Positions 2,677-44,719 of a DNA stretch of 64,000 bases are shown one piece after another. The number at the start of each line of letters is the position of its first letter. The stretch's first letter is position 1. The notes under the pieces are model-generated. The model did not search any database and was not told the DNA's origin. It worked only from the letters and a program-made list of their open reading frames with translations. The stretch is from Auricularia sp. M13 (Eukaryota > Basidiomycota > Agaricomycetes > Auriculariales > Auriculariaceae), in NCBI GenBank assembly GCA_037042915.1, contig CM073196.1, forward strand, positions 558,001-622,000, given 5' to 3'. A program made the position numbers and the translations under genes.

Positions 2677-4650
2677 CTAGGCAGAAAGCCGTCCGCCGAT
2701 GGCAGAAATGGGAGGAGAGAAGAAGTATTCGCCTGGCATCATATCAGTTCCAAGTCGAAAGCTGCAAGGCTAACAGTTACTCACCGCCATGGCTAACGAC
2801 GAACTGAGGAATGCTAAGCGAGGCAGAGGAATTACTCGGAAGCAGGCCGTTGACGACGCGAGGCTGGCCATTGTTCTGCCCGATAATGGGATCGAGGCCG
2901 ACAGTAGCGGGCGTCTTCCCGGGAGGGAAGTTAGCGTTATCGGCCCACGTCTGCTGAAGGAAATGAAATCCTTGACTGAGTTGAGCCTGGTATGCCACAA
3001 ACGCAAGGCCGCGCTCCTGAGTAGTCGTGTTCGATGCAGATTCCGCAGAGGTAACTGGTGAAGTGTAAGATATTTATCCCTCATATGTTAGCTAAACTAA
3101 CCCTCAGGTCCGTAGGGGATGCCGCTTCGCATGATAGAGTTAGCGCCAGCGGACAGATTGGGTGGGGTGAGGCTTCCGCCCAGGTCAGCGCGCGGGCGAG
3201 TCTTCCTGTATAAATGTTAGTGAAAGAGAGATAAATGTGACCCTAAGAAGCGTACCGGATGTGAGCGCTGAAGGGGCAGTGGCTCTGGTCGCTGCCGAGG
3301 TCAAACCCGGTGTGTGAGTAGGTGAAGTTATTGTTCCGCTGCAAGAGACTGAGTGAGATGTTGTGGTAAACAAGGTTTTGATTTGCATACCTGAGCGTCG
3401 GCACCGAGAGCGGGGTCATCCGCGGTAGGTGTCAGATCAATGGGCGCTCCCTGAGAATCATGATTAGTGGCGTGTTTCCCTGGAAGGCAAACCCCATACC
3501 GATTTCCATCGCCCAACCATGCGCGCTCCCAGGAGATCCGCGCGCGCTTGAAGACTGCCGCTTCCAGCAGGAGCGTTATCGAGGAGATACTTGTTGAATT
3601 CCGGGACGAGCTGCTCAAGTTGCCGGAAAGCGAGGAAGGAGCCGCCCACAGCCCAAGACGGGCGCGTGATAGGGTCTATATGAGATTTAGACAGGCATGG
3701 GCACATTCAAGGACCAGCGTACCATTAGTAGCGCCAGTAATGATGACTCCGGCATCGACAATGTTTTGACCAGGCAGAGGAGTGTTAAAACCGTTGATGG
3801 CGGGCTGAGCAATTCCATCAAGGAAGCCGAACACTGCACAAGTGCTTCAGTAAAAGCACACAAAGAAGTGGTAAATGCCCAAACTTTCATGACCAGCTTC
3901 GTTTCCTGGACGGATCGAAGCCGACAACGAGTAGAGCTTCGAGATCGACGAGCCGAAAGTCGACTCAATCGAAGCCACCTGCTGGTCAATGAGGTCGGTC
4001 GTGTCGCTCGCGAGGATGATGACGCCGTGGATCCCAGTGCCAGCAAACTGAGGGACCCATGACGAGGTTGATTCCTTGAAGCTGGTGGCATCTTTGGCCT
4101 GGCCGTTGGCGAAAAGGCTGTCTCCCAAGTTGTCTGTGACGCCCAATGCGAGCAAACCTGTGTTGGAAAAGGCGATATTGAGGGCAACGAGAGGCTGTGT
4201 GGCAACGTTGGAGAGCTGGGTCACCGATGCGACTACGGGAGCGATGTCGGAGGCAAGATGCGTCTTGAATGTTGCGGGGTCGTTGATAGCGAAGAAGTAG
4301 AATAGCTGCTTTTGCTTGTGCATTCCCACGCTGGGGAGGTTGTCAGCGTTTCCAATGATACAAAGAAGTTGGCCCACAGAATGTCGCCTTGAATATCGTC
4401 TGTGTTCAACGATGTGGCTGCGACCTGGGCCGCGGAGGGCACAGGAGGCAGGCCGGCGACGTCTGAAAGTACTGATCAACGACAATTTTCTTCTCGAGGG
4501 CAAGGGCTCACTCTTCAACAGGCTCGTCTTTCTGGTGCCCGTTACGGCAGCAGGACTGTCCGCTACGCGAGGAGCGACAGAACGTGCTAAACCAAGGTCG
4601 GCGGCGAGAAGGCCACTGAGAAGGGCGACAAAAACAGGAGAGAGACGCAT
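2677..4650 (-). CDS. dyp: Secreted dye-decolorizing (DyP-type) heme peroxidase
   Basis: Ten exons join in frame to 509 residues: 4512-4650, 4378-4462, 3885-4330, 3723-3833, 3500-3675, 3391-3450, 3256-3338, 3102-3205, 2785-3054, 2677-2732. All introns are 47-52 nt. The N-terminus is a signal peptide (MRLSPVFVALLSGLLAADLG) plus a propeptide. Family landmarks appear in order: DIQGDIL, KQLFYFFAIND, the distal heme motif GFLDG with its catalytic Asp, RMVGRWKSG, the proximal-His segment CPFSAHIRKTRPR, the distal-Arg segment IMRSGIPYG, and the C-terminal GGEYFFSPPISA. The splice between AGHE and MFGFLDG, which rebuilds the heme motif, strongly supports the model. DyPs oxidise dyes, phenols and lignin model compounds with H2O2. 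The GMC oxidases at 31-37 kb could supply peroxide (inference). Confidence 0.93.
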
Positions 4651-7162
4651 GTTGAGGACTGGGATGGAGAGTAATTCCCACTTTCTCGCCCAGCTTTAAG
4701 CGAAGTGCAGCGTCCAATAGGAGACCACGCATATGGGTGAGACAGGATGATGCCTAAACATCAGGCTGTACCTGTAACTGTAAAACCCGACACCCTCGCG
4801 TGCGTGAGAATGGCAGCCAGTGCTGACGCCGCCCCTAGTCATTCTTACGACAGCTCCCAAACGGGCCGACATGCCGAAAAGCAAGCCGTCAGCGTAGGAG
4901 AGGCTCAAAAAGCAACACTTACAAGAAGTATGATAGCCTATGAAGCTTTTACCGGCATGGTAAGTGTGTCGAACGGCTTCGCACTTTCCCATACCAGGTC
5001 ACCCTCACCTTCGAACAGGCACGATGGGCTCTAATAGAGCAATAGCCGCCATTAATTGTTTACTGTCGGAGTACCTGCACCTAGTTTGGTATACGGACTC
5101 GGAGTTAGGAGGTCAACGGATATTGTCCTATCGCGTTTTGATCCCCCGCGCACATGAACAACAGTGTATGTCTATGTTCTCGCCGATCAAATACGCAGCG
5201 GCACTGTTGAATTGCAGTGCACCTGTGCGGTACAAATGCGGTATGCCGGAATACTTCGTATTGTAGTATGCCGAAGGAAACTAGTAGGGCTGGCTGCTGA
5301 ACGAAGCTGACTTTCCCTGAAGCCACTCGCTGATATCAGGTTAATGAATCAGGCATGAAGCTCTGGAGCACGACCCCGACCAAACGGTTTTGTCGACGCG
5401 AAACGGCCGCAGTTCAGGGCCTCCAAGAACCGCAAACTGCCCGCGATACGATAAATATAGAGTTAGGTAAGGGCGATCAAGGATCTGCAAAGGCGGTGTA
5501 CAGGATAGCACATGCAGCTGGCGAGGACCAGGAGGCTGCTAAGACTATAATACCGACTGGACCCCACATGGCTCATTTGCGGGACGACACAGCTCCGAAA
5601 CCGAAGGGCTGGTACGAGAGCGCTCGACAAGTCCCAGAAGCGCACAAAAGAGGTTCCCCCAGGGAGAGACCTGTGCTGCGCGTCTCGCACGTCGTGGCAC
5701 GTTAACTAGCGACAGAATAGACTGTGAGAAAAGGATGCTGTCGGCGGTGTCGTGGATCGGCGATCCGCAAAAAGCCGAGCGAATTGGACTGTCGCCCGGC
5801 GAACGATGGAGACTACTGTAGTGCTGGTGAAATTGCGTTGCAGTTTGCCGCCCGTCGGATTGACAAGACCACCTGCAGGCCATCGTTGGGAATTCCCCCT
5901 ACTCTGCGTCAGCAAGTCCGATCAACGGGTATCGCTCGGCAGACAACTGCAAAGCCGACGTACTCTGGCTGGGAATGGCAGACGTTACCCAAACTCTCCC
6001 GATTTACAGACATTTGTAAGACGCTTACGGTGGCTCATTGACTCATCTGCGAGTCGTAATCGAAGGGCCATGCCGCTGCGTTCCATGAAGTACGCGTTTG
6101 CCATGGACCGTGTGAGCGAGGGTGGCATGGACCGTGTGAGCGAGGGTGGCCAGGAACGGACGCGCGGATATGCGCACCGCCTGACAGAAGCATGACTGTG
6201 ACTAATCGCTGTTCAGTGATAGCCAAGCAGGTGCCAGATAATGAGTCAGTTCTTAGGGAATAAGTGAAATGAAAGCTCTCCGCCGTTCTTAAAACCTGGA
6301 ATGCACTCGGCGTAGGGTCGGAGGCGGTCGCAATATATCCATATGAGTACTGTGAACCGTGAGGAACGACCTAGGGCACCAGGAGCAGTTCGGCGTCCAC
6401 AGCGTAGTAACCGTTGCGTGTTTGGTCTTCCGAGGCCGGCGGAAAGCCATTCCAAGGAGCACAAGCCGCGTCGGAAATCCGCGAGCTCGGCCAATGAATA
6501 GCTGAAGACTGCGCAGTGTAAATCGAGGCAGGTCACTGACAGACTGCGCAAGTAAGAGAAAATGGAGACTGAGCAGGGACGAGCGCCCAAGACAACCTAG
6601 CGAAAGCTGCACACGGAGTTCAGGAGATGAGTCTCGTCAGAGCTATGCGTATACAAAGCCGAAGCAGCGCAGAGACCGCTGAGGTGGCCTGATGAGCAGT
6701 TTGCTATGGAACACTAGGAAAACTGCCCGGGTTCGTCCAGATCATGCACCGCCGGCCCGGGGAGGCTCGGGAATGCTATTGCCAGACAGAATCGCGTGGA
6801 CCCAGACGCCTACGGCACAGGGAAACAGATATGATCTGTTGCCTATTGGGAGATTGAGCGGGCGTGAGAACTGCTGACAACAAAGCAAAGGCGATGACTG
6901 AGAAGGTTGCGGAGCTCCAAATGAGTCCACACATCTTGTTCTCCTCGTCCCACCTTGAAATCATCCAATCGCACGGCAGCTTATTCATGACCTGAATTCT
7001 ACAGAACTATACATTACGCGTTGTTTCACATTCGATTCGTCTACTGTACACTCGACAATGGCTCGCCAAAAATGAAGTACATCAGCAACGGCTCTTTTAC
7101 ATACCCATTCAACCGCGCGCGCGAGGAGCAAAGTAACGGCTCTACTCGCCATATTGTCTTCA
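4651..7162. other. Gene-poor stretch
   Basis: About 2.5 kb without any frame that shows domain-like sequence or a plausible exon chain. It contains the 24-bp tandem duplication at 6103-6150. Short open frames exist on both strands but have no recognisable motif or consistent splice sites. It may be degenerate repeat or plain intergenic DNA. Confidence 0.4.
6103..6150. repeat. Perfect 24-bp tandem duplication
   Basis: Positions 6103-6126 and 6127-6150 are identical. As a multiple of three it would leave any reading frame intact, but no supported gene covers it. Confidence 0.9.
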
Positions 7163-9578: not shown

Positions 9579-11588
9579 GTGGGGTGATGACAAGGCACCG
9601 TGCGAACACGAACGCAACACGATACACAACACCGGCAGCTCGGCCAATGAATCAAGCGATAATTCAATAGTCTATCAGCGCGTTCGAGAAGTCGTTCAAG
9701 TTCTTCCAGGAACGTCGCCGCTTTCCCGGTACGTATCCTTGACATGCACATCGGGGCTCTCAGTGGCTCAATATGGCTTTCTTACGCGTCACTGAGCTTC
9801 CTTTCTCATTCGCAGGTTTCTGGAGCCGAAGAACCCTGCAGGCACCGACCGTGCATTGATTAATTGACACCCAACCAGTTGGGTTTACGTGCGTCGATGA
9901 CTAAAAGGCCCAGTTCCAGCGTTTATGTTTGCCTTAAGTATACTGACTGGACTTTGTAGATACTCAGCCTAATAGGGCCGCTGACTAGGGGTATACTGAC
10001 TATACCCCTAGTACTGGCCATACCTCATTTCTTTGCGTCCCTGCAACCAGCCTGCCTCAACTGTCCCGGTCGTCCCTCACTCTTTGCTGGCACTATTATT
10101 ACTTCCAAGCTCGTGCCGGCGCTGTCTTGTGACAGTCTTGGGTTGTCACTCATACCCCCGGCTCTCAGCTGCTCCTCAGCTGCCAGTGGTAAATCCATTC
10201 AGAGCCTTTCTGCGCCGCCGCGGTCCGCTCTTGCTGAGCTTGCGGGCAATGCGATGTTCACCCGACCGCTTCATATCTCAATGGTTCCGTTGCTTCGCGT
10301 GGATCTCGGGCGGCGAGCCGGCCAGCGTTCGCGGGAACATTTGGTATCGAGCGAGAGAAGACGGACAACCTTCTGTCTAGAACCCTGCCCTCGGTCTCAC
10401 CACGGTACTGGGTCTGTTCTCTGATGGAAGTCTAGGCGCTGCCGTCGCTGCAGCGTACGCTTACACTGTGCCTCATATTCCGACGAGATCAGCTCACCGC
10501 TATAGATCATCTCACCAGCCGAATAGCCATCGTCATGTGTCTGAGACGCCGTAATTACTGGTGACCTGATGGGCTGGACGTCGTATACGGCTTCCACAGA
10601 ACGTACATGGGTGCAGTGTCCATGTGCGGCTCGTCACATTTCAAACCCCACAACTACAAGCTTTATATGTGCGACTACTACTCTTCTTCCCTTTTACCGT
10701 CGATATGGCACCGCTCAGTATACCTTTGACGCTCCGCACGGCACTGTACATCGGATAACTCATCAGGTACCTGGTTGCATCGGGATTCGGCTTCCTAAGC
10801 TGGGATGCAGCTCGTCGTTACCCGGCCGGACATTGCTCCTCCAGCTCTCTGGAGGGCGTACGCCCCAGCATCTAGAGATACGACTTTTTCGGGCTGCAGT
10901 AACTGGCGGGTTGACTGTTCTTCTGCGCGATGGTTCCTGATGGCCATCGATTATGACCAACCTCTGACGAGGTAGGCGCCCTATTGTATATCTGCATTTC
11001 CCGCGGCCCCACTCATCTAGAGTCTGCTTTTCGTCAGTCCAGTCAAGCTCTGGGCACAGCAGCAGCCTGCCAGCAGATGTCAACGATGTTCACGTTCGGA
11101 ATTATTCGGAGACATTGCTCATGTCTGCACCAACGTCTAATTTGGGTCTAGCCAATGCAGCCAACGAACGACGACCGGCCCATATCGCAGATATCCACGG
11201 ACTTCAGGTAGTTCCAGGTGTCTGGGCCCAATGCAGCATGTTGGTTCCGGATCGGCTTACGTACGGTGCATCACGTTGCGCAACTCCCAGCCAACCTCTT
11301 GCCCAAAATTCATAGGAAAATACATGGGACAGGTAGAGACATGATTTTGATTGCAGCAATCTCCGAAAGTATTATAGAGTCTAGGATATATGTCTTAGGC
11401 GAGTAACTGCTCTGGGGCGATGGGAATTTCTCTCCGAGGAGTTGGCGGAGCAACCTGCGTTATTTGGTGCCGCGCACCCATCGGAGTTTCCCCACACCCT
11501 CGCTCTCTCTCCCTCCCTCTCTCCCTGCATCTCCCAACGTTTAAGCTACCCTTCGCGCCTCCGAGTATACCCGGGCGTCTCCGACGGA
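9579..11588. other. Intergenic; the right part is the duplicated upstream region of the zinc-finger genes
   Basis: No supported gene. About 10,950-11,580 aligns by eye with 15,455-16,095, ahead of the second zinc-finger paralogue: shared stretches include CGGCTTACGTA, ATCACGTTGCG and CTCTCCGAGGAGTTGGCGGA, then a CT-rich tract. This marks the region as part of one duplication unit and the likely promoter and 5' leader. A perfect inverted repeat lies at 9984-10012. Confidence 0.5.
9984..10012. repeat. Perfect 12-bp inverted repeat with 5-nt loop
   Basis: Arms 9984-9995 (ACTAGGGGTATA) and 10001-10012 are exact reverse complements around CTGAC. It could form a hairpin or be a palindromic binding site. 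No function can be assigned. Confidence 0.8.
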
Positions 11589-13462
11589 ATGCACGGTCCA
11601 CTCTTCTACACCGCTCACAATGGCAGGCCGGCGACGGATGCACATGTTGGTGCGCATATTGCCACAGTTTCGCCACGGGCATGCATAACCTTGACCATTT
11701 GCAGCCGGTTGGCCCATGCCTATCTGGCGCCCAGATTTGCAGATGCCTGCCGCCCCTGCTGGCTTCCCCCGCGCGATCGCGTATCCACCTCAGCCTGTCT
11801 TCCCGTCTGCGTTCACGTTCCAGCCTCCACTTCCGGCGCCAGTGAACCCCGGATGGGGTATTCCACACCACTTTATCCCACTACCGTTTGAAACATATCG
11901 CAGGGGCGTCTTGGCGTCCTCCACGGCAGTTTCTGCAGCAATATCGGCAACCGCGCCGCCGACATTCCCGTCTGTCCACGAAGTCGTGCGCCCCAAGCGG
12001 CGCCAGGGCTGCACAATGTCACCGCTGGAGAATCCGTTCTTTGAGTCTCGCCCGATGAAGCCTACCCCTCCGAGTGCAATGGTCACGACTGGACCGCGCT
12101 GGTTGGACGAACATGAACGTGAGTGCCCCCCAGGCTTGTCTTCGCGACAGATTCTCATTTTCTTTGCCTCTAATTCAGTTAATATATCCTGGTGTGTCAT
12201 TCCAGCGCCAAAGGCGACCTGGCCTACGTGCAGGACGACGGAGCCTGGCGCCAGTCCAAGCATCAACTTCAACGCCGGCGCTTCACCATCGGTGGCCTCG
12301 GAGCAAGATGGCCCTCATCTCATGAGCGTCAGTGACTTCCTGAGTCTAGATTATACACTTGACGCGGCGTCACCTCCCGCTTCCTCGCCCCCGTTCTTGC
12401 CGCCGTCCTCGCCATCTTCCTCGCCGTTGTCGTCCCTTCCCAAGACGCCGAGGATTACTGGCCATCTCCCCCTCGGGCAGCGGCACTCGACGCCTCGCTC
12501 CAGCGCCAACTCGTCGGACGACGAGCCACTCATGGCCACGGTCCGCAAGAAGGTGTCGCTCCCAAGGATTGCGACGCTCAACCTCCCCAAGCCGCCTTTG
12601 GACAGTTCCGCGTCCCCTCCCTCTGCATGCGCCAGACCCATTGCAGGCAGGCGGCCGGTCAATGTCGAGGGTCTCATGAGCGAGAGCTCCTCGGGACAGT
12701 CCACGGGATCAGGTAGTACGTCGTCGAGCAGCATGTCCCCTTTCTCGACTCAGAGTCCGTCGGAGATGGAGGTCGACGAGCTTGCGGACGACGACGACGA
12801 CGACGACGACTACCTGCCCCATTCCGCTTCATCGAGCAAGCGGAAAGCTTCTCCTGAGGTATGCAAGCACCGCGCCCTCTCCATTTCTGACTGAGGTGAA
12901 TAGCATCCTTCTCAGTTGCCAAGGAAGAGAGGTCCCCCGCCAAGGAGTACGTGGTTGTTTAATATCGATACCGTCGTACTGACGCCTGCGGCAATAGATA
13001 CACATCATTGCGACGAGTGCTGGAAAGTCTTCTATTGCGATAAGCATTATAATGTTGGTCGTCTGTATTGCTGCCTTGTTTTGTTGACGTCTTGCGTAGA
13101 GTCACAAGGCCACCCACGCGAGGAAACGAGGAAAGAAAGCCAAAGGTGAGGGAATTAATTTGACGAATGCATGACAAGCTCACCATTCTCTATAGCTTTT
13201 CATTGCCCGGAATGTAATAAAGGCTTTGGGAGGATCTCAGATCTTCGGAGGCATCAAGTTATTCACCTGGAGGAGGAAATGAGTGAGTTGATATCATCAT
13301 ATGGGTCTCGAGGCTACATATAAACCTTTTCTGTCAGTCGTCCCGTGCAACTACTGCGACTGCGTATATACGCGGAAAGACGCACTGGTGCGTCATCTGC
13401 GCATCGCCGGGAACAAAGGCAAACACCCGCCGCCGCCGCCGCCCAAGGCAAGCAGTTCATGA
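11589..13462 (+). CDS. C2H2 zinc-finger protein, paralogue A (three C-terminal fingers)
   Basis: Eight exons join to 499 residues: 11589-11649, 11705-12118, 12179-12858, 12916-12946, 12998-13053, 13100-13145, 13196-13282, 13338-13462. The long N-terminal half is Pro/Ser/Ala-rich and disordered, with a conserved island AMVTTGPRWLDEHE and a conserved IATLNLPKPP. An acidic patch (MEVDELADDDDDDDDY) precedes a Lys/Arg stretch. Three C2H2 fingers follow, starting CDECWKVFYC, CPECNKGFG and CNYCDCVYTRKDALVRH; two of them are split by introns. The start was fixed by comparison with paralogue B, whose first exon is also 61 nt and ends at the same codon phase. It is probably a nuclear DNA-binding regulator, with the disordered half as regulatory domain. 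A proline run (PPPPPP) ends the protein. Confidence 0.85.
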
Positions 13463-16095
13463 CTTAGCTACCGCACATATTGACTGGCTTTTAGAAGCGG
13501 GTGAAGCACGTCAGCGGGCATACAGAATGTCGAGTGGCAGGGATTGTGAAGAATTATTAAGGTTATTATTCAAGTGCACGCAATGGTTCCCGAGAAGACG
13601 AATTTTGTAAGAAGCATGCGGTTTTGAACATGATGGAATGTTCTGTTACCTACCAATTGGCCTGTTTGTATTTCGGATTTGCTAGTTAACACGCTTTTAA
13701 CCCCGACACTTTGCTCATGTCTTCAAAGGTTGTGTCACGTGTCCACTCGTTCTTTCGCCACATGAAAATCCAAGGACAGGGCGACTTCCTTGCTTAATTT
13801 TGCTGAAAGTAGCTCACCTCGTAGAGTTCAAATGCCCCGCGGCTCGTTAGGCCTTCCATGACAGAGGCGAGTGAAAATTTCGGTTGCATGCGCATCGCTA
13901 GGACTCGTTGGCGCGTTGGTACACCCTTCGGCTGTCGTCTTGCTTGTCAAACTCTATGCTTACCAAGGCGCAGTCCCGACAACGCATTCGACAACGACGG
14001 CTCTGCATAGGCCCGCTCCTTTCGTGCCATCTCAGAACAACTGGACAGTGCGACCGTCGGTGCCGCTTAGCCAAATCGCAGACGCTTCACCACTCGCGTA
14101 CAGCGCTTTTCTGCAGCGGGTCAGCGTTCGTAGAGCTCGTGCGCACCAAAATCCAAATGACACTTAGTAGCGGCCCGCCCACTTGAATGCGCGGAAGGCC
14201 TGACGCAACCTGGCCTTTGTGATCTGGTTGGCACCGCAGGAGACGCGGCGACGAGCATCCTCCTGTGATCTGTAGTGCCGGGCTGGATGCCCTGATTCGT
14301 GCAACGGCGCCCGATTCGCGACATAAACCGCTGGGCTTTTCAATATTCACACGCGCTCGACCTCTCTCTTCTGTTACCGCGCTAGGCCCCGTTCTTTTCG
14401 TCGCTGCTGGGCCCGGTTTTAATCGCATTAGCTGCAAAGACCGCGCATCGTGCCGCCCGCGCACGACGTGCTGGAGCACTAGTTCGTCGGGCACACATTC
14501 GAGCAAGCCCTATGACGGTCGCGGCCACTGTCGCAACCAGGGGTATTCCCGTCTTCCAGCTTGTACAAGAGCAACAGGCGGAAGAGCGATATTCTGCTTG
14601 GCGCTGGTGACTGGCGCGGCGACTGGAACGCGACGCCAGGGACGTTTGCGGCAAGCGTTGCGGCACATCATATGTGCTGTCCGCGGCGAACTAACTGGCG
14701 CCCAAGTCGCATCTTCCCTTTCCTGTGGTCGCTATGACCGCTCGCGCAGATTGCGAGCAGCCAGTTCTTCGACTGTCGCCACTCTGCGCTCAACACGCTT
14801 GTCAACTTTGGCGGGTGCATCCAGCGCATATGGGTCCGTGCGCAATCGTCCGCGCTGTCGCCGACGTCAACGCCTCAAAGTTCGCTGTGAGCATCGCGAG
14901 CGCCGTGCGACATCTCATGGGAATAGCCACTCTCCTGTCCTGGCCACGAACACAGGAAGACATGTTGTGACGGTTGATTATCTCAGGGCTCTGCTCTCAA
15001 TGTTCTAGCAAAAGTTGCGAACATTGCACACCGTCGCTTCTTTCTAGTCTTTTAGTCGTCCTGAGTCACAATGGTATGCGCCAGGCCTAATACTTGTGGT
15101 CGGCTTAGATTTGCACTTCACCTCTTTATGTCCAATCAAGTGAGGCTCACGCTGAACTGGCCACTTGTCGTTCTCTCGGTGAGTCAGCCTTCGTCGACTT
15201 CAGTACAACATGACTCTCACAAAAACACCTCCAGAATTGACGTTCCTGTCTGCTTCCTTATAGAGTTATTCATGGCTATGATGCTCTCGCTGGTTGCATG
15301 CCTTGGTGCGTCGTCATTCTTGACACAAACACGATATCTCGGGGGCCCGCTTTTCCCTCTTTGCAGGCACAGCGTCTAGTAGCTGACTCGCGAGCACTTC
15401 AATCGGTGAGGCACGATGCCGGGGGTCCGTTCCTGATAATCCACATCCGCTTCCGATGGTAGGCGCCTGTATGCATGCATTCCCCTACGACACAGCCATC
15501 TAGTCTGCATTCCGTCAATTAGTCAAACGATAACTGTTCCGCGTATCCCGCAGGTGCACCCGTCACTTCTAACGTTCAACATTCTAATCTTGTTCGCGAG
15601 ATCATTTGGTACGTACAGGCAGGTGATCTGGTTTGACGTCTAGGCATTAACCCTGTCAGCATACGGGATACTCATCGATGTCGATCATATTGACATCTAC
15701 GACCTTTGTCTCCCTCTAGATATCTTCGACAGTCGGACAAGGTATAGCCTGCATGTTGATCCCGGCTCGGCTTACGTATAGCGTATCACGTTGCGCCACT
15801 ACCAGCCATTCTGTGGCATAAATTCGCAGGAAAATGCACAGGGCAGTTAGCGACAAGCGCTCACTTGCCCCGAACTCCGACGATATTGGAGAGTATGGAA
15901 TAAAAATATGTGGCTGGTAGCTTTCGCAGGGCGATGGGAATTCCTCTCCGAGGAGTTGGCGGAGCAGACTGCTTTATTAGATCCCGCGCACCAGTCGGCG
16001 TTTTCCCGCAGCTCTCGCTCTCTCTCCCTGCATCCACTTGCATCCCCAGTGGTCCACTTTGCCCCATTTTAACTCCAAGGACCCGTTCCCACGGC
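13463..16095. other. Intergenic between the two zinc-finger paralogues
   Basis: No supported gene. Frames around 13,870-15,010 are open but show no motif and no good splice chain. The last ~640 bases are the diverged copy of the upstream region of paralogue A, so the duplication breakpoint should lie near 15,455 or before it. Confidence 0.4.
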
Positions 16096-17992
16096 ATGCA
16101 CGCTACCTTATCCCTGAACGATGCCTCGAACAGGACGGCGACGATGGGACGTATTGGTGCGTCCATTGCCACAGCGCTCGCACTGGTTTGCGTAGCGCTA
16201 ACCTCGCTAGCAGCTAGTTTCCCCATGGGGATAGGCCCCACAACCTCGCGTGGACCGACCCTACCAAGTATGCTTTCTCCGCGCGGGATCGACCACTCCC
16301 ACGCCTTCAGCTCGTTCGACTTCAAGCCGCCGGCGCTTTCAACGTTGCACAGTGCATGGAGGACTCCACTGCGCGCCGTATCCCCTCCTTATGCAACTGC
16401 AACGCACACCAAGAGCGTCCTAGCGTCATCCGCGCCGTTTTTCGGGGCAAGGGCCCCGACGTTGCCGTCGATTCATAGTCTCGTAAATGCTTCTCATCCA
16501 GAAGGCTGTACCCATCCACCGCATGCAAAGCCGTTCTTCAAGACCCTTCCAATGAAGCGCGTCCCGCCAGGCGCCATGGTCACGACTGGGTCGCGTTGGC
16601 TCGAAGATCCTGAACGTGAGTGATTTCCCATTGCTCGTCGCCATGCGCGGGGAGTGGGAGTATATTCCGCTCTTACACAGGACTCAGCTCACCGTGCTGT
16701 GCTCGGCCGTCCAGTTAATCTCTCCTGGTACATCTTACCCGCGCCCACCTGGCCCACGCGCACGGGAATGGAGCGTGGGATTGGTTCGGCTCCCCATCAA
16801 GAAGGACACTTAGCAGGCGCCCTGCCGTCGGAGGCCGCGGAGCAGGCTCGCCCTCGCCTCATGAGCATCAGTGCTCTCCTCCACGCAGAGCCTTCGGCGC
16901 TCGACGCGACCTCGCCCACCACTGACTCGTCGTCGCCATCTCTCTTCTCGTCACCGCTGTCGTCTGCCCCCAGCACGCCGGACTTTGAACGTCGCCTTCC
17001 CCTCGTGGAGCGTCCTTCCTCGTCGCTCGCCAGCACCTGCTCATCCGACGACGAGCCATTGGGTGTCATGCCCCGCACGAAGGTCCAGCTTCCCGGGATT
17101 GCGACGCTCAACCTTCCTAAGCCACCGACGAAGGGTGTGATGGCTCACCCTCGGGCAGCTACTCGTCCTGTGGCTGGTAGACGACCTACCCCCGTTGTCA
17201 ACTCCGAGAGCGACAGCGAGGGAGCTCGAGCGAGGTCCACGACTCAGCACTCTACATCCAGTAGCTCGTCGCCTCTGTCGAGCCCGGACATGGAGATCGA
17301 CGAACTCGCGGACGACGACGATGTGTATCTTCCTCCGTCAGCATCGTCGAGCAAGCGCAAGTCCCCCCCAGTGGTGGGTGTGGCACAATGAAATTCTCTC
17401 CCGACTAAGTTAACCCCAGAGCCATGACGAACGTCCGCCCAAGAAGAAAGGACCGGGCTCGCCTGCAACTAGTACGTGTAATCCTCTCCTCTACTCCATC
17501 GTGCTCATCACCTCTTTAGGGCGCCACCAGTGCGACGAGTGTCCGCAGGTCTTCTACTATGACTCTCACTACAACGTATGTTGGCTATGTTCACGAAGCA
17601 TCTTTAAGATTCTCACTTTTGTCCCAGAAGCACAAGGTTTTGCACGCGAAGAAGAAGGGCAAGAACGCAAAGCGTAAGTTCAGAGGCGCCAACATAGGCT
17701 TGAAAACTTACCGGCTCTTCAGCATTCTCCTGTGCCCGTTGCAACCAGGGCTTCGGCAGGATCTGGGACCTAGAGAGACATCTTTTCACTCACACGGGAA
17801 AGAAGCGTGCGTTCCCTTAGTTTCTCAAGCACGATTCATTCCGTTGACACCCCTTAAACAGCCTTCCAGTGCAACTACTGCACTCGCGGATACAATCGCC
17901 GCGATGCTCTCCTGCGCCATCTCCGCCAGGGCAAGCCAGGACACCCGAAGCCGAGGCCGAAGGCATGTGCTGCACGATTTCATCTGAGATAG
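16096..17992 (+). CDS. C2H2 zinc-finger protein, paralogue B (three C-terminal fingers)
   Basis: Eight exons join to 496 residues: 16096-16156, 16214-16615, 16715-17373, 17420-17471, 17520-17575, 17628-17673, 17723-17806, 17862-17992. Every intron sits at the same place and phase as in paralogue A. Conserved blocks are AMVTTGSRWLEDPE, SWYILPAPTWPT, IATLNLPKPP and MEIDELADDDDVY. The three fingers begin CDECPQVFYYDSHYNKH, CARCNQGFGRIWDLERH and CNYCTRGYNRRDALLRH. The finger 2-3 linker HTGKKPF is the classic TGEKP type; paralogue A has lost it (HLEEEMI). B is therefore the more canonical DNA binder. The acidic run is half as long as in A. Likely a nuclear regulator; the target is unknown. Confidence 0.87.
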
Positions 17993-18522
17993 ACGCTGAC
18001 ATGCTTCCAGACGCGGTGAACGCAGGTCCTGTCAAAATGTGCGCTGAAAAGGACGCCGCCCGCTCTCGCGACCTCGTAACGAAATCTGTGCTCGAAGAAT
18101 ATCTCAGTATGCTTCCCTTTTCCTCTGTCGGTCCGTTGCCTTCCCCAATGTAAATAGTTGCAGTTCTGGTTGTTGATCTCGTTGATGTATAGGTGACTGC
18201 GATGTCTCTTTTTGTTGTTGGATGCACTGTACTGTACCTTCAGAACCTCTCCACTCTGTTCCCTGTTCTCGATTTCCTGGATCCCAATGGCTCGTTCCTG
18301 TGTGTCTCGCACAATAGCAGTGTATTTACCACATCTCATCATCGGCATGCCGGAGGTTCGCGTCCTTTCATAACATAGCGCGTCAAGTGGCTTTCGCCGA
18401 AGAATCAGATCTGAGCAAAACGTCTGTTACAGTCGAATTAAGTAACACACGGTACAGACAACCACATGCCAACTTCAAGCCGGCGTATCCATGGAGTAAG
18501 AACAGAGACCAGGAGCGCGGCA
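17993..18522. other. Spacer between convergent genes
   Basis: 3' flanks of the zinc-finger gene and the expansin-like gene. AT-rich with no coding signal that I can support. Confidence 0.5.
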
Positions 18523-21276: not shown

Positions 21277-21634
21277 TCAGCCACCGTACCTATGCATCCC
21301 GCACCACCCCGCCGGCTGTCTCCCGCAAGAGCAGCTCGTCTCGCGGTGCGTTGCGTCAATATGGTTGAGAGCTGCTGTAACGCAGCCGAATTTCGTGCCG
21401 CAGTACCTGCAGGGAGTGGCTGCCAAATTGGTGCGTCAGGCGAAAATCTGAGGACGAAGACTACTAGGCCTAACGACGTACGACGGCCGAAGTTCATGTG
21501 AATTCGTAGCTCCTCAGTGTCCGCAGTGCGTTTGGGGCAATAGGGGCAGGATAAAATTACTGATTGACGTATGTGAGTGCTATGCGAGTGTGCGAAACTT
21601 TGCACGCTGGGAGCGTACTTTCGTTCGCGTTCAT
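21277..21634 (-). CDS. Zinc-finger microprotein, copy 1 (unrecognised family)
   Basis: Three exons (21619-21634, 21482-21559, 21277-21419) encode 78 residues. Exon 1 is 16 nt and encodes MNANE. Exon 2 is 78 nt and holds a first unit C-x2-C-x12-H followed by MNFGRP. Exon 3 holds a regular finger C-x2-C-x12-H-x4-H containing FGC, then a tail C-S-C-x7-C-x2-H. I know no named family with this order. The first unit lacks a classical second His; the invariant Asn-Phe-Gly stands where it would be. It is the outer member of the left, minus-strand pair next to SGO1. A TTTAAA stretch about 70 nt upstream may be its TATA box. The function is unknown; small size and dense Cys/His suggest zinc-dependent protein or nucleic-acid binding. 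Confidence 0.75.
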
Positions 21635-22210
21635 TGATCAGAGTCTGCCTTTAACGGTAGCTGTGAGACTGAGGAAATGGATAGCAGGCGCGACGGCGCA
21701 TTTTAAAGGGCTCGCCGTTGACATGGACCACGCCCAAGACAAGTGGTCGCCGTCGATGAAGGGGGACACTAGCGTCGGGGCCGTAACTCATTGTACCACG
21801 AAACGTGTGGTCGCACCATGACGACTGAGCATATTGACTCCTTCAACGCTGCGCTTCACGGTATATGACCACAGCGACATGGGGTTTATTGTTGTGGAAC
21901 GAGTCTTTGCCAGTGTGAGCGGTTCCGAGCAATGCTTTGCTTTCGTCCAGGGCTTCCGTTGACACAACGCACAGCTTTAAGGCCCAGCTTGGAACCTCAA
22001 TACGGAAGCGGCTTCTTGAAGCCATGTACGCATGTGTACAATAGGCGTCGACGCGTTGACGCACGACGAATCGAAGTTGATTGAGCTTTGGGCGTCGCTC
22101 GCTTTATGAGTTGGTTAGCAATGGGCCGCAGGCTTGGGTACCCTCAATGAGATTCTCAGTACCAAAATTATGTAAAGTAAAAGACATTCTGCGCATGCAG
22201 TTTCTCCATT
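21635..22210. other. Spacer between microprotein copies 1 and 2
   Basis: Upstream of copy 1 and downstream of copy 2. No further coding signal is supported. Confidence 0.4.
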
Positions 22211-22564
22211 TCACACTCGCCCAACGTTATGCACTGCGCACATGTCGTACGAACGGCCGCACGGGCAGCTTCCCACGCGCTTGTGCATCAATTCGATGTG
22301 ATGATTCGCGGCCACAACGCAGCCAAAATGTCTGTTGCAGTACGGGCACACAGTTGCTAGATGCATGAGTGAGCCGGAGGCCTGGCCGCGCGTGAATCGA
22401 ATGGAGGAGGAGCGTACGCTTCCCAAAGTTTGTGTGGAGTTTGAGCTCTTGCTCGTCGAACGTGCCCTTGGTGCAGTGTGGGCATCTAAATAACTCTGTA
22501 GCTTTCCGTTAGTGGGAGAGGAATTGGGTGCGTCTCGGGACGCACGCAGCGTAGCGGAGCTCAT
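22211..22564 (-). CDS. Zinc-finger microprotein, copy 2 (unrecognised family)
   Basis: Three exons (22546-22564, 22418-22495, 22211-22356) encode 80 residues. Exon 1 is 19 nt (MSSATL). Exon 2 is again 78 nt and ends at the same phase as in copy 1. Unit one is CPHC-x12-H followed by TNFGKP. Unit two is CPYC-x3-FGC-x6-H-x4-H. The tail is C-P-C-x6-C-x2-H. Intron 1 has a textbook CTAAC branch site. Compared with copy 1 the proteins differ at most non-ligand positions, so the duplication is old and the Cys/His pattern is under selection (inference from residue conservation). Confidence 0.78.
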   Translation of the reverse strand: MSSATLRASRDAPNSSPTNGKLQSYLDAHTAPRARSTSKSSNSTQTLGSVRSSSIRFTRGQASGSLMHLATVCPYCNRHFGCVVAANHHIELMHKRVGSCPCGRSYDMCAVHNVGRV

Positions 22565-23152
22565 ATTTTCGAGAGTATTGGGTAGCAAGCAGGGCTGAAT
22601 GCGGGATTGGAAAGTCATCGCAGAGCAGAAATCCCTTTTTAATGAGAATATGAACACCACGCCGAACTCTGAGCCGTGAACGTGGTCGAGATCCATCTGG
22701 TAGGCCCACTAGGCCCACACGCGGACGGTACACCACGTAACTATCCTGGTGTGCGTCATGTCAACGACAATATGTAACTTTTACGGAGCACGGAAGCGCT
22801 AATGCTGTGACCGCATCAATTATTGTCTCATGTCTTTGAAGCGGGAAATCATGGTTTGCTCTTGATTCTGGCCGAGTGACGTTGTGCGGCGATTTACCGA
22901 TTGTACAAGGGATTATAGAGTTGATTGGGCTTTTTATGAGATTACTTTCAGCCCGAAGACAAAGAGAATTTTTTGACCGTTGCCACGTGGCGTCTGTGGC
23001 CATGCGGAGTTTGTCACGATCGGTGGTGGAGAGGCTCGGCACGTGACGCGGTTGTGGCCGTACGATTTTGGAGCCGGCCGTTCTTCGTTCATCTCCATCT
23101 CCCATCACCACGACGGCTGCTCACTGGCTGCTTGCCGCAGCCGCCGCCAACG
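22565..23152. other. Divergent upstream region of copy 2 and SGO1
   Basis: AT-rich, about 590 bases between two outward-facing starts, probably a shared promoter region. No gene seen. Confidence 0.45.
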
Positions 23153-24889
23153 ATGAGCACGCGCCGGGACTCGCGCGTGCACCTTGCAGCGCGTCAGAAT
23201 GACGCTCTGCTCGAGTTTGAAAACTGTGCGCAGCTCGCTACTGCCGGTAACTGACCGCTGATATTTCGACACTATTTCACAGTCAAGAAGAAATATTTGC
23301 TAGTCAACAAGCATATTACAAAGTTTGTCAATGCCTTATTAAGATGTTATAAGTTCAACTGACACAATCCAGGCTCAACTCGACGCTGAGCGTCCGCATC
23401 GAAGAATTGAACGCCCAAATTTCCGAGCTCTACGTTGAAAATTTACGCCTACGAGCGAGCGAGATTGCGCTGGGTGCGCAGCTGCAGCGTGAGCGCGAGA
23501 AAACGCGTAGGCTACTGCACGACGCCGAAACCGCCGTGAGTGCCAGTCCTGGTTGCCAGGTCCGTGACATTATTGTTTTAGATTCTAATTTTTCCGAATG
23601 TGCAACAGACTTCCAGCCTTGCGACAAGACTTTCTACTCTGCGCGATGCGTACAATATCCCACCCGGCGTTGAGCCTGCGAAACGTAAGCTCGCTATTGT
23701 GCCTTCATTTTTCATCTGTACTTACGGTTGCACTCCGGAATTAAAGAACAAACGCAACCACCACTTCGCGCCCAGAAGCCGCTCAGGTCGTCGTTTTCGA
23801 CGCCGCCACGCCCGGCTCGTGTATCACGTCCGCCAAATTTTACGCGGATTGCGGAGGATGATGAGGACCTGCAATCTTCGCCAGCTCGCGATATCCCGGA
23901 ACGACCCTCATCGCGCTTAGCTATGACCTTCGAGCGCGAGGAGCAACATCAATACCCTCTGCATCAGCCGACACTTGCTGAAGTGGACTTTTCACACCGA
24001 GCGCCGCGGCGCCGGCAGAGCGGGTTGGTGACAACGCTGATGCGCGGGGATGTTGAAGATGTGACAACACCTGCAACTTTCCGCGAGCCCGAGCCGGAGG
24101 CCGAGCCCGACGTCGGGCACGAGGAGATGGACATCGTCGACCTTGCACCGCCGACGCCAGTACTGCGCAAGACGCGCCGGCTCAGCGGTCCCACGCCGTC
24201 GCCTGCTCCGCGTCTGCCGGACGATGATGAAGATGAGCGCGAGCATAAGGAACAGGTGCGCAAGGAACAGGAGCGCGAAGAACGGGAGCGCAAGGAGAAG
24301 GAACGCGAAGAGCGCAAGGAGAAGGAGCGCGAAGAGCGCGCACGTGAGAAGGCGCGGCTTCGGGCAGAGCGCGAGAAGGAGAAGGAACGGGCGCGTCTTG
24401 CGCTCGAGGAGCAAGAGCGCCAGCAGCAGCAAGAACAGCAGCGACGCCCCTTTGCTGAGCTCCCGCTCAACCCGCCAACGTCCTCGACATCGCCGCCGCC
24501 GCCAAAACATCTGCCTCCAAGCAAATTGCCACAACCTGTAGAAAGAGTCGCGACGCCCGTCGAGGAGCAGCCCGTAGTGGAGGGGCGCGGCGCGCGCGCG
24601 CGGAAGAGCGTGAATTACGCCGAGCCCAAGTTGAACACGTACGTCCAGACTTCCTGTTACTGTCATCGCGATGCTAACAGCCGATTGCAGCAAGATGCGC
24701 AAACCAGATCCGCCAGAAGGCGCTCCTGCACCAGCGCCGCGGCGCAAGAAGAGTTCGACGTCGTGCTCGCGGCGCACTGTGGCGCCCGCAGCGACAGCAG
24801 TTGACGACGCGGGCGATTTCGCCGACGCCGAGGGCGCACAGCAGAGCGCCGCGGCGACGTACGTGCGGCGGCATAGCATCGCTGTATGA
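23153..24889 (+). CDS. SGO1: Shugoshin (centromeric cohesin protector)
   Basis: Six exons (23153-23246, 23283-23322, 23373-23535, 23609-23684, 23747-24638, 24691-24889) encode 487 residues. The N-terminal shugoshin coiled coil appears only after splicing: KKKYLLVNKHITKLNSTLS, VRIEELNAQISELYVENLRL, then a basic helix to about residue 97. It is the dimerisation and PP2A-B' binding module. The C-terminal SGO motif (RARKSVNYAEPKLNTKMRKP) spans the last intron and binds phosphorylated H2A. Between them lies a disordered region with a ~75-residue Glu/Arg/Lys segment of the single-alpha-helix type (about 24,226-24,450). Shugoshin protects centromeric cohesin at meiosis and mitosis. The protein ends in a basic SIAV tail. 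Identification is firm. Confidence 0.93.
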
Positions 24890-25381
24890 TGATGTGCCGA
24901 TCTTTCTTGGTTTATGTTCCGTATACGACCGTCCTCCCTAGTCCATTTACCCACTCCCCTGATGACACCGCCGCTGCTGCCCTCTCCTACCCACCTCGCC
25001 TGATTCCCACATGACGCCCCCTCGACGCCCTATGACGACCCCGCTCGCTTCTTTCCGTCTTGTCCGTTGCGCTCTCACGCTATTATGCTACGCCCGTACG
25101 TCCACTCTCCCTCCATATATTCTGCTTCTTTCCCGGTCGTGTTGTATAGAGTAGCTGTGCGTACGCCGTTGTTTATGCTTTCCTTTCTGCGCGACAACTT
25201 ACAGGTTTGATGCGCTTCGACGCGTCTGGCAGAGTGCGCTCCGACGACTCATTGCGCCTCGACGACCACAACCACCGATATCCAGCTATAAAGGTGCTGT
25301 ACCCTCATTGCATTAGGGCACCACACAAGCGTATCTCTCGTATATTCGCCTCCAACTCTTTTCTGCTTGAAGTTATAGGAC
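24890..25381 (+). promoter_or_regulatory. Upstream region of microprotein copy 3, with TATA-like box at 25287-25292
   Basis: A TATAAA at 25287-25292 sits about 95 bases before the copy 3 start. The left part holds the pyrimidine-rich 3' flank of SGO1. An open frame from the ATG at 25209 runs in phase into a possible intron ending at 25378, so a longer first exon cannot be ruled out. The TATA box inside it argues against that. Confidence 0.45.
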
Positions 25382-25675
25382 ATGTTCTCCTGCGCGTACT
25401 GCGAAACCCGCACGACCGACGCGAAAGCGTTGCAGTTGCACCTGAATTTCGGGAAGCGTACGTCACGCCTTCCCACCATCCACACCTTCCGCTCGTCTCA
25501 TCCCAGATGCTCAGCGACACAGTGCGAGAAATGCGGCAAGACCTTCGGCTGCACCGTCATGGCCGCGCGCCACGACGCCGATTACCACCGTGGCCAGGCC
25601 CGCTGTCGGTGTGTGGGGAAGTGGACGTGCAGCGGGCTTCATGCGACTGGTTGCCCTGCGTACAAGCTTGGCTGA
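25382..25675 (+). CDS. Zinc-finger microprotein, copy 3 (unrecognised family)
   Basis: Two exons (25382-25457, 25515-25675) encode 78 residues. Unit one is CAYC-x12-H followed by LNFGKP. Unit two is CEKC-x3-FGC-x6-H-x4-H. The tail is C-R-C-x5-C-x3-H plus one more Cys. The donor GTACGT lies at the same codon and phase as in copies 1 and 2. The acceptor was placed at 25514 because only this one restores the P-T-Q-C junction seen in the relatives. A separate tiny first exon, present in the other copies, was not found; translation seems to start directly at MFSC. It is the inner member of the right, plus-strand pair. Confidence 0.75.
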   Translation: MFSCAYCETRTTDAKALQLHLNFGKRTSRLPTIHTFRSSHPRCSATQCEKCGKTFGCTVMAARHDADYHRGQARCRCVGKWTCSGLHATGCPAYKLG

Positions 25676-26219
25676 TTGGATGCGGCTGAGGATTGGGACT
25701 TTATCGAATGTGATGCATGCTGTAAAAGTATAATTGCGTTTTGTATCTGGATCACGTGACCCATTTGCGAAAACTCCTCGCGTTTGCCACTGAGGCAAGG
25801 CGTTGCGATGTCGCAGTGGAACCTCGTCCAGAAGGAAGAGCTCCGATACTTCCAAGAGTTGAGCTCCGCCGTTGAGAGTGACACTGGTGAAGAACTGCAG
25901 TATAATAATGGGCCCAGTCCACGTGACCGCGCGCTGCAAACCACGCATTCCGCTTTTGGATGCGACAACAATAAGTGCGATCGCCTCTTCTGTAGCCTAT
26001 AGCTCTTCAACCAATGGGAGTGCTGTTGCCATGACGGGCCCGCGCATGTCGTGGTCGATCACTGATGGAGCTGGCGAGACCAGTATTGTCCTATGAAACC
26101 ACGCCTGTGCTCTACCGAGTACTTACCGCAGCTCCTGCTACTTAAACGGCTCAACACGTCTTTGCCGCACCTCGCTCTCCTGCGCTCTTACTGTCAACAC
26201 CAACATCCCGCGAACCCGA
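25676..26219. other. Spacer between microprotein copies 3 and 4
   Basis: 3' flank of copy 3 and promoter of copy 4. No coding signal is supported. Confidence 0.45.
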
Positions 26220-26597
26220 ATGGAATCGCGATCTGCAATCATGAACGCGAATGACAGTCAGTAGACCCGTCCAGCCGTATCCCTGGGCGCGCATTGATCT
26301 TCCCACTCAGTCCAATTCAACTGCCCTTACTGCCCGAGACAGGTAGAAAACTTGGCCCAGCTCAAGCCCCACACGAATTTTGGCCTGCGTGCGTGCTCCG
26401 TTGTTTCAACTCGTTCATTTTTCCTGAGCTCATTGGCCATCCTGCAAGCATTGCCATGTCCTGCCTGTGGCGAAAATTTCGGCTGCTTCGCAGCTAGATT
26501 GGCTCACGTCGACACGGTCCACGGACACGCTGCCATTTGTCCATGTGTCCGACCGCCGGAGAAGTGTTCCCTGCATACGCTTGCGCGTGTAGGATGA
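26220..26597 (+). CDS. Zinc-finger microprotein, copy 4 (unrecognised family)
   Basis: Three exons (26220-26256, 26311-26388, 26449-26597) encode 87 residues, or 80 if translation starts at the second in-frame ATG (26241). The second start gives MNAND and a 16-nt first exon, matching copy 1 (MNANE, 16 nt), and is therefore likely the ancestral one. Exon 2 is 78 nt. Unit one is CPYC-x12-H followed by TNFGLP. Unit two is CPAC-x3-FGC-x6-H-x4-H. The tail is C-P-C-x6-C-x2-H. All zinc-ligand positions seen in the other copies are kept. Confidence 0.78.
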
Positions 26598-26984: not shown

Positions 26985-27824
26985 TTAAGTAGCAGATGGG
27001 TACCTGCAAATATTCGCCATATGATTCACACGGGCCCTCTCAGAACAGAGTACTTTCGTACAGCCTAAATTTGGGCATGGGAAGGACGGGACAGCGTGTC
27101 CCAGCATGTGGGCACGGTGGGCCTGGGCGTGAACACTAACCGTGCGGCACCCGGGGAAGGTGCAGGTGTAGTTCTTGGGGTCTTTCTCCACGGAGGCCTG
27201 ATAAAGCGCCTCCGCCTCCTCGAGGGACAAGACCTTCTTGAGGCGCGCGCCGGCCGCCTGGTCGTGTGCTGCACGAGGCGAAAGCGCGGGAGGACCCGAG
27301 TAGACGGTCGGCGGAAGATATGGGCGGGGACGCTTGCTAGTCAGGACCTTCTCTTTCTTCGCCGTTAGTGCCCGAGGAGCAGGTGAGACTGTGGCCCCGA
27401 AATAAATTGGGAAGAGAGCCTGTCCACTTGAGGGCAAGGGCACCGGAGCGAAAGAAGGAAAAGGCGCGGGCGTGAATGGAGCGAAAGCCGGCAGCGGGCA
27501 AGGTGGAATATGAGGCTGATTTAGGGCTAGAGGCGATGTGGGAGGAGAAACGGCCATGCGAGTGTCGACGTCGTCATTAGGATTGGCGGACGCGTGTTGG
27601 TCACGGAGGACGGGAGGCGACGACGCAGGGAGATGCCTGAGCAGAACATCATCTGGGGAAACACCGCACTCCTGCCAATGCAGCATGTCCGCGATGAAGG
27701 TGGAGTTGAGTAACTCGTCACTGCGAGTGATACAGGTCAGTATCACCATCGACTTTAGTGCTGGAAAAAGGGAAATGCCTGGTAAGTGTATCTGGTGCCT
27801 GCTGCCCGCGAATGGCAGCTGCAT
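26985..27824 (-). CDS. Pro-rich protein with two C-terminal zinc fingers
   Basis: A single open frame of 279 residues from the ATG at 27824. The middle is rich in Pro, Ala, Phe and Ser (repeats of the FAPFTPAPFPSFAP kind). A basic stretch (KKEKVLTSKRPRPY) precedes two C-terminal fingers. Finger 1, from CTFPGC, is C-x4-C-x12-H-x3-H. Finger 2, from CPNLGC, is C-x4-C-x12-H-x4-C, with Cys as fourth ligand. The first 35 or so residues are doubtful, because another frame from an ATG just upstream also runs here. Probably a nuclear protein; the target is unknown. It is not close to the microproteins beside it: the spacing is x4 rather than x2 and FGC is missing. Confidence 0.55.
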   Translation of the reverse strand: MQLPFAGSRHQIHLPGISLFPALKSMVILTCITRSDELLNSTFIADMLHWQECGVSPDDVLLRHLPASSPPVLRDQHASANPNDDVDTRMAVSPPTSPLALNQPHIPPCPLPAFAPFTPAPFPSFAPVPLPSSGQALFPIYFGATVSPAPRALTAKKEKVLTSKRPRPYLPPTVYSGPPALSPRAAHDQAAGARLKKVLSLEEAEALYQASVEKDPKNYTCTFPGCRTVSVHAQAHRAHMLGHAVPSFPCPNLGCTKVLCSERARVNHMANICRYPSAT

Positions 27825-43364: not shown

Positions 43365-44317
43365 TTAAGACTCCAGTGGCTCGCGGTCCGCATCCTCGTC
43401 GTCAGAGTCTTCCTCGTACTGTTCTTCATCCTCCGATTGTTGTTGCTGCTGCTGCTTCCGTAAGGCCCGCTGCCGCTCTTCCAGCCGTTTCCTACGTTAA
43501 TCCGTCAGCATCAATGTCCGCGAGCGAGATAGGTCAGAACGCACGCAAACGACGCGCTCTTCTTGGCCGTGTCGACATCCGGCAGGCGCATCCCGGCCCA
43601 GTAGAGTGTGGGCACGCTGAACGTGCTCAGAATCTTGAGCGCCTCGCGCCGTCCGTCGCTCTGCTCCTCCTCACGGGCGCCGAGGGCGTCCGGCTCGTCG
43701 GCGACGCGGTCCCAGCCGACGTGCAGGCGCCCGCCGAGCAGCTGCTTGAGCGTGTCGTTCGCGACGCTCGCGCCGCACGCGTAGTCGAGGTCGAGCGCGC
43801 TGTCGACCTTGACGCTGCGCGCGACGGGGCCGGTCGTCAGCAGCGCGCGGTCGTCCGTGGGCAGGTGCAGCAGCAGGAACGGCACGGCGGAGTGCAGCGC
43901 GCGCTGGATGCCCGCGCGCCGGAAGCCGTGCGCGCTGACGAGCACGGCGACCGCGCGCACCGGCCCGCCGCCGCCGTCGGTCGCCGCGCCCTCGAGCGCG
44001 CGCACGGCGCCGGCGTCGACGCGCCGCGGGTCCGTGCACCAGAAGTCCGCGAGCGTCTGCAGCGCCTGGCGCTCCGCGCCGCTGCCGACGACGGGCAGCC
44101 ACCAGAGCCCGTGCAGCCGCGTGCAGTGCGCCGACGGCTGCTCGTCCGACGGCTTGAGGTGCATGCTCAGCCGGTCGCGCAGCACGGCGCGCGCGCGGTC
44201 CAGCGGCGTCAGCTTGTCTGCGGGTCGCTGTGCCAGCCGGGCGCGCGCAGAGTACTGCTCCTTGGCCCGGATGCGCGCGCGTGTCCAGCCCGACAGCCCC
44301 GGGCGCGACGGCCGCAT
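43365..44317 (-). CDS. RRG7-like protein that has lost the nuclease residues
   Basis: Two exons (43545-44317, 43365-43491) encode 299 residues. It aligns without large gaps to the RRG7 homologue at 62 kb. Shared are a Leu-Ser-Met at the start of the core, GLWWLPVV (GWWWLPPT there), AVLVSAHGFRRAGIQRA (ALLVSESGFTRGGLARA), VPFLLLHL and W-x-G-x-RLP. The nuclease motif is not shared: GGID of the partner is HCTR here, and Q-C-K is replaced by a D-F-W stretch. It should be catalytically dead if the fold is kept. The second exon adds a tail KRLEERQRALRKQQQQQQ followed by an acidic run (DEEQYEEDSDDEDAD). GC content is very high. It may be a regulatory or structural derivative. Confidence 0.7.
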
Positions 44318-44719
44318 TGTCCAGCTGTTTTGCAGGTGGCGGGAGGAAGCAAAAGTCTAGGCGCGGAGCGGAGTTTGCGCACCTTGTCCTCCTCATCCTC
44401 GTACTTTCATTGCTTCGCGTCTGATATATGTTCCTTCTGATTCGCTCGCCGAAGAAAAATGCAGTTCTCGGGCGAGCGTGCATATAGCCCCCTCAGGCTT
44501 TCACGTTGAACAGCGATCATCTACGGCCTCGCGCGCATTGACTATCTCCGTATCTTCCTCTGGCAGTCCCTTGTGGTTCTTAGCCTCGCCAATCAACCTA
44601 GCCTATACTACGGCTTCAACTCTACAATCAGTCCTCGACCACTGTCAGTTAGTCTCCTTTTGCAGACTTTACGGTGACGGAATTAAATGTCAGTATTGAA
44701 ATTGCATTTTCAAGCATTA

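Follow-up and report, generated by a model that had tools for sequence, protein, structure and literature searches.

Four small predicted zinc-finger genes in Auricularia sp. M13 with C2H2-type motifs and an unmatched cysteine- and histidine-containing tail

What do four very small genes, set close together in the genome of Auricularia sp. M13, encode? They occupy positions 21277–26597 of a 64-kb stretch of contig CM073196.1 (56% GC; hereafter the window), and a first-pass annotation had described them as zinc-finger genes of an unrecognised family. Scripted spliced translation, which underlies all four gene models, recovered four genes in that interval, with predicted products of 78, 80, 78 and 80 residues for copies 1 to 4; an alternative upstream ATG at 26220 would lengthen copy 4 to 87 residues. 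It also reproduced two details of that annotation, the 78-nt second exon of copies 1, 2 and 4 and the 16-nt first exon of copies 1 (MNANE) and 4 (MNAND). All four copies carry an intron of 57–62 nt in the same codon of the motif NFGxP and in the same phase (phase 1), where it splits the proline codon after its first base. Its donors read GTACGT, GTACGC, GTACGT and GTGCGT in copies 1 to 4. An additional phase-1 intron of 50–59 nt follows the first exon in copies 1, 2 and 4 (exons of 16, 19 and 16 nt). Genes so small, with exons of 16–19 nt, are easily missed by annotation.

The proteins share three motifs, a first finger, a second finger and a tail, and these were found in all four copies in the order first proposed. 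Their alignment contains 18 invariant columns, 11 of which are candidate zinc ligands; the other seven are L23, N28, F29, G30, P32, F42 and G43 (copy 4 numbering). In the six-frame translation of the window, the first and second motifs each occur four times, and neither was produced by any of 100 first-order Markov sequences. For the tail, C-x-C-x5-7-C-x2-3-H, six occurrences compare with a Markov mean of 1.12, so that this pattern is weak and not significant by itself. When a profile of three copies was scored against the fourth, the held-out proteins reached 98.3, 86.1, 65.3 and 79.5 bits, far beyond the maxima of 2000 shuffles each that preserved Cys and His (34.3, 38.9, 35.8 and 37.1 bits). 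The copies thus have residues in common besides the ligands.

Across a 49-codon core, the copies are 37–53% identical. The proportion of nonsynonymous differences (pN) is 0.32–0.49, compared with 0.73 in codon-shuffled controls, and lies below that of synonymous differences (pS) in all six pairs. Values of pS (0.65–0.84) are no lower than in the controls (0.67–0.74), so synonymous sites are saturated. With pN below the control and pS saturated, the four genes are old duplicates of one gene under purifying selection, and their age can be given no more closely than that. These results, together with the held-out profile scores, bear out the view of an old, homologous and protein-constrained family, and the genes look real. 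Second introns resemble one another at about 1.5 to 4 standard deviations above base shuffles, a comparison that includes the common intron ends and from which we conclude nothing. No fifth copy was found in the window by tblastn with the four proteins and a motif scan; the next-best tblastn matches had expectation values (E) of 0.016 or more, one of them in a C2H2 gene at about 17.8 kb.

We then asked how the family relates to catalogued zinc fingers. C2H2 fingers follow the consensus spacing C-x2-4-C-x12-H-x3-5-H. The second motif (C-x2-C-x12-H-x4-H, with a core Phe) has this spacing in all four copies, and the first motif (C-x2-C-x12-H, with a core Leu) has it in all four except for the last His. 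None of the four spliced proteins reached a Pfam or NCBIfam cut-off, and all matches at E up to 1 were of partial length; every protein matched one or both of the C2H2 models zf-C2H2 (PF00096) and zf-C2H2_4 (PF13894) below cut-off. The best scores were 22.2 bits for zf-C2H2 (gathering threshold 25.2) and 25.0 bits for zf-C2H2_4 (gathering threshold 27), while the unspliced open reading frame (ORF) of copy 4 reached 26.3 bits against the latter cut-off of 27. At E up to 10, a profile of the four proteins matched 138 sequences of the PDB, the best at 5.3e-10. Nearly all of the best 60 of these are C2H2 proteins by name, and none has its best stretch beyond position 65 of the 80 in the profile. 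In the alignments of the three best matches, the stretch from the His of the first finger to the linker Pro is 1 or, mostly, 3 residues shorter in this family. From these matches and the shorter linker, we read the first motif as a shortened C2H2 finger that lacks the second His and the core aromatic residue, and the second as a C2H2 finger of standard spacing. The family differs from ordinary C2H2 proteins in these features of its first finger and linker, in an invariant Cys at helix position −1 of its second finger, and in its extra tail, which was unmatched in the profile comparisons. Judged from its residues, it is an unusual branch of the very common C2H2 superfamily with an unmatched tail, and not an unrelated domain.

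The description "unrecognised family" therefore stands in part. A full-length Pfam match, named beforehand as the result that would count against it, did not appear; the first two motifs, on the other side, are tandem C2H2 fingers. The description has been partly tested, against Pfam, NCBIfam, PHROGs, the PDB and the open-access literature, none of which would show an unnamed fungal protein of a general database. Among the literature matches listed, titles and abstract openings do not describe the family. PHROGs returned three unnamed families, each matching one of the four members at E 0.0009–0.009 (alignment coverage not shown). With the four-protein profile, viral contigs yielded 21 pattern matches and prokaryote genome contigs 5, and with the exon-3 alignment viral contigs yielded 45; none are confirmed relatives, and since the scanned collections are viral and prokaryotic, these scans say little about fungi.

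Membership of zf-CHCC, zf-Di19, Nairovirus NSm and Zn_SUZ12 was considered and rejected, as all these matches were below cut-off and covered the proteins only in part. The likeness to zf-CHCC (PF10276), which we take to be linked to NDUFS6, concerns residues 25–42 of copy 1 (H...GxPxxCxYCG..F; 19.4 bits, cut-off 27). It was listed for only one of the four copies and spans 18 of 37 profile positions, and the model of the family's second finger instead has a helix following the CxxC hairpin. Another comparison is with plant microProteins and mini zinc fingers (MIF; PMC5381583 and PMC13087070), which are small proteins that engage partners, the MIF proteins being zinc-binding; for the present family such engagement is only a proposal. 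MIF proteins are related to zinc finger-homeodomain proteins, another kind of finger. A microProtein has kinship with a larger protein and joins that protein's complexes; here, no larger parent protein with the present domain was identified.

Structure prediction used contiguous translations only, namely the exon-3 piece (second finger plus tail, four rows) and unspliced copy 4. The exon-3 piece was modelled as a minimal strand bridge and a helix, with a predicted local distance difference test score (pLDDT) of 87 in the first two ten-residue blocks and 63, 56 and 51 in the later ones. The model of unspliced copy 4 contains two finger-like units, the first made of short strands and a helix with block pLDDT values of 57–62. 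It is uninformative on how the fingers pack, because its mean pLDDT is 55.8 and it carries the retained intron. Of the 93 PDB matches that Foldseek returned for the exon-3 model at E up to 10, none had an E of 0.001 or less, and the best 50 are mostly C2H2 fingers by description. The most probable among the matches listed is the EEA1 finger that binds Rab5A (probability 0.87, 24 columns, 0.4 Å, E 1.7), a likeness that is suggestive only.

We further compared the residues at helix contact positions −1, 2, 3 and 6. DNA-reading C2H2 factors carry polar contact residues at these positions and TGEKP-like linkers, TGEKP being the usual C2H2 linker. At −1, 2, 3 and 6, two ordinary C2H2 fingers encoded in the window carry R, S or W, D and R, respectively. 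In copies 1 to 4, the second finger has Cys at −1 throughout, T/V/V/A at 2, A/A/M/A at 3 and N/H/R/A at 6, and the first finger has D/D/D/N, E/Q/K/A, E/E/A/Q and I/L/L/P. The core aromatic residue of the first finger is replaced by T/T/T/V, and all four copies have NFG[KRL]P at the site of the usual TGEKP. Taken together, the second-finger contacts, the missing core aromatic of the first finger and the short linker make base reading less likely and favour a role that faces proteins.

What these zinc-finger proteins do is still a guess. We favour, with a rough probability of 40%, a protein-binding intracellular protein with structural zinc over a DNA binder that reads bases. The four old duplicates would encode one small intracellular protein type, with no hydrophobic leader visible by eye at the four N-termini (MNANE, MSSATL, MFSC and MNAND in copies 1 to 4). 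Its 12 candidate ligands may hold three zinc ions, so that the shortened finger, the C2H2 finger and a CCCH knuckle would form one particle. Such a particle might bind another protein, either serving as an adaptor or competing with a larger zinc-finger regulator, and would not read DNA bases by itself; the copies may have been kept because their partners or their times of use differ. Several observations weigh against this picture. The last two blocks of the exon-3 model (pLDDT 56 and 51) leave the tail without a confident fold, and unspliced copy 4, with its two units, was modelled poorly overall. In most copies, the first finger is polar at −1, 2 and 3, as are some residues at position 6 of the second (N/H/R/A), the predicted isoelectric points (7.6–9.0) are compatible with nucleic-acid binding, and most of the best PDB relatives are named as DNA-binding fingers, though the PDB favours such proteins.

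The ligand count permits a more specific proposal. Twelve candidate zinc ligands are common to the four copies in about 80 residues. In copy 1, the 8 Cys and 4 His of the whole protein are all among these common candidates; each is the same residue in that column of the other three copies, except for the third tail Cys, the twelfth ligand, which is present in all four but lies one column off in copy 3. By spacing, three ligands fall in the first finger, four in the second and four in the tail, with the Cys of FGC in addition. If all 12 bind zinc, the FGC Cys is left to complete the first finger. We can picture a new kind of compact domain with three zinc ions: the invariant FGC Cys of the second finger would complete the first finger in trans, and both fingers together with the CCCH tail would make a single rigid unit, not beads on a string. 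We regard this arrangement as somewhat unlikely, even though 12 ligands fit three zinc ions with none to spare in copy 1. The pairing of the FGC Cys with the first finger is arithmetic, not structure, and other pairings are possible, such as that hinted at by the zf-CHCC-like match in one of the four copies. If true, the interlocked arrangement would be a new way to build a rigid module from C2H2 fingers, and the four diverged copies would be a natural test of its partner-binding surface; if false, the locus would be one more local C2H2-type expansion in a mushroom-forming fungus.

Nucleic-acid binding offers the main competing explanations. The proteins could be minimal two-finger DNA-binding regulators, the pair binding DNA like the yeast Adr1 fingers, the tail stabilising or dimerising them, and the copies having diverged in target. 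The standard spacing of the second finger in all four copies, profile matches to DNA-binding fingers (ADR1 among them, at E 0.0017), the polar first-finger contacts, the isoelectric points and the larger C2H2 genes nearby would all suit such regulators. We nevertheless consider them unlikely, as the first finger of every copy lacks the fourth ligand at its usual place, the aromatic core and the usual linker, and positions −1, 2 and 3 of the second finger hold Cys and small or hydrophobic residues. Binding to RNA or ribonucleoprotein, in the manner of C2H2 proteins on double-stranded RNA, seems distinctly improbable. A small, mostly basic particle would be suited to it, and zf-C2H2_jaz, labelled double-stranded RNA-binding, matches copy 2 (18.9 bits, cut-off 22.6) and, more weakly, copy 4 (14.7 bits); these matches are one finger long, below cut-off and unlisted for the other two copies, and other C2H2 models score alike.

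Two further explanations set specific binding aside. Twelve candidate ligands in so short a protein would also fit a zinc buffer or store, Cys- and His-rich and holding labile zinc as in metallothioneins. We give this very little credence, because the copies agree in residues other than Cys and His far beyond the shuffles that preserve those two, and because the second motif is spaced as a structural finger. That the genes are chance ORFs, pseudogenes or noncoding relics might be argued from the very short first exons, the in-frame introns of copies 3 and 4 and the derivation of the models from sequence alone. It is the least probable of the readings discussed here: the NFGxP intron has an identical position in all four copies, pN falls below pS in every pair, no spliced copy contains a stop or frameshift, and the first two motifs never arose in the Markov sequences. 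The remaining probability is divided among minor and unlisted possibilities.

The coordinates of the four genes and of possible promoter elements are collected in Table 1. Copies 1 and 2 point leftward and copies 3 and 4 rightward, flanking a shugoshin-like gene on the plus strand at about 23150–24890, between copies 2 and 3 (bounds set by eye; Shugoshin_C 21.8 bits, cut-off 23.3; Shugoshin_N 19.1 bits, cut-off 30). The outermost copies, 1 and 4, have the N-terminus MNAN[ED]I in common. The ATG of copy 3 sits inside the region that forms exon 2 of the other copies, and no coding first exon was seen for this copy. A/T-rich, TATA-like words lie 73–99 nt before the ATG in all four copies, with no chance estimate behind them.

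Table 1. Predicted gene models and possible TATA-like elements (window positions).
Feature	Position	Strand	Exons or location	Product	Introns
Copy 1	21277..21634	minus	21634-21619 (16 nt), 21559-21482 (78 nt), 21419-21277	78 aa	59 and 62 nt, both phase 1
Copy 2	22211..22564	minus	22564-22546 (19 nt, MSSATL), 22495-22418 (78 nt), 22356-22211	80 aa	50 and 61 nt, both phase 1
Copy 3	25382..25675	plus	25382-25457, 25515-25675	78 aa	57 nt
Copy 4	26241..26597	plus	26241-26256 (16 nt), 26311-26388 (78 nt), 26449-26597	80 aa	54 and 60 nt
TTTAAA (possible TATA-like element)	21702..21707	minus	73 nt 5' of copy 1 ATG		
TTAAAA (possible TATA-like element)	22637..22642	minus	78 nt 5' of copy 2 ATG		
TATAAA (possible TATA-like element)	25287..25292	plus	95 nt 5' of copy 3 ATG		
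TTAAA (possible TATA-like element)	26142..26146	plus	99 nt 5' of copy 4 ATG		

The introns at 25458–25514 (copy 3) and 26389–26448 (copy 4) are multiples of three and free of stops, and the unspliced stop-to-stop ORFs run to 98 and 99 codons, respectively. The corresponding introns of copies 1 and 2 are 62 and 61 nt long, and so intron retention was rejected as a trait of the family at large.

The surrounding area is, by its predicted products, rich in zinc-finger genes, comprising the four small genes, a larger tandem pair and a 279-codon ORF. The tandem pair consists of two diverged copies of a larger gene on the plus strand (11300–13500 and 15800–18100), 68–73% identical in their five best blastn stretches, each carrying an ordinary C2H2 finger (CPECNKGFGRISDLRRHQVIH; CARCNQGFGRIWDLERHLFTH). 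The 279-codon ORF (26985–27824, minus strand) adjoins copy 4 and contains two C-x4-C-x12-H fingers (YTCTFPGCRTVSVHAQAHRAHMLGH; FPCPNLGCTKVLCSERARVNHMANIC); at E up to 0.1, Pfam returned nothing for it. Rfam at gathering thresholds and ARAGORN with the bacterial code found nothing in the window. Farther away, an ORF at 62060–62812 (minus strand) matches RRG7 at 67 bits and falls narrowly short of the Mrr_cat cut-off; what by eye alone looks like another, diverged copy of this ORF lies at about 43511–44356 (minus strand). An ORF at 3847–4695 (minus strand) for a fragment of a DyP-type (dye-decolorizing) peroxidase points to Auricularia (Basidiomycota, Agaricomycetes, Auriculariales) as the probable host: over 153 residues it differs from PDB 4w7l, presumably the Auricularia auricula-judae structure, at only 4 positions, all within the last 5.

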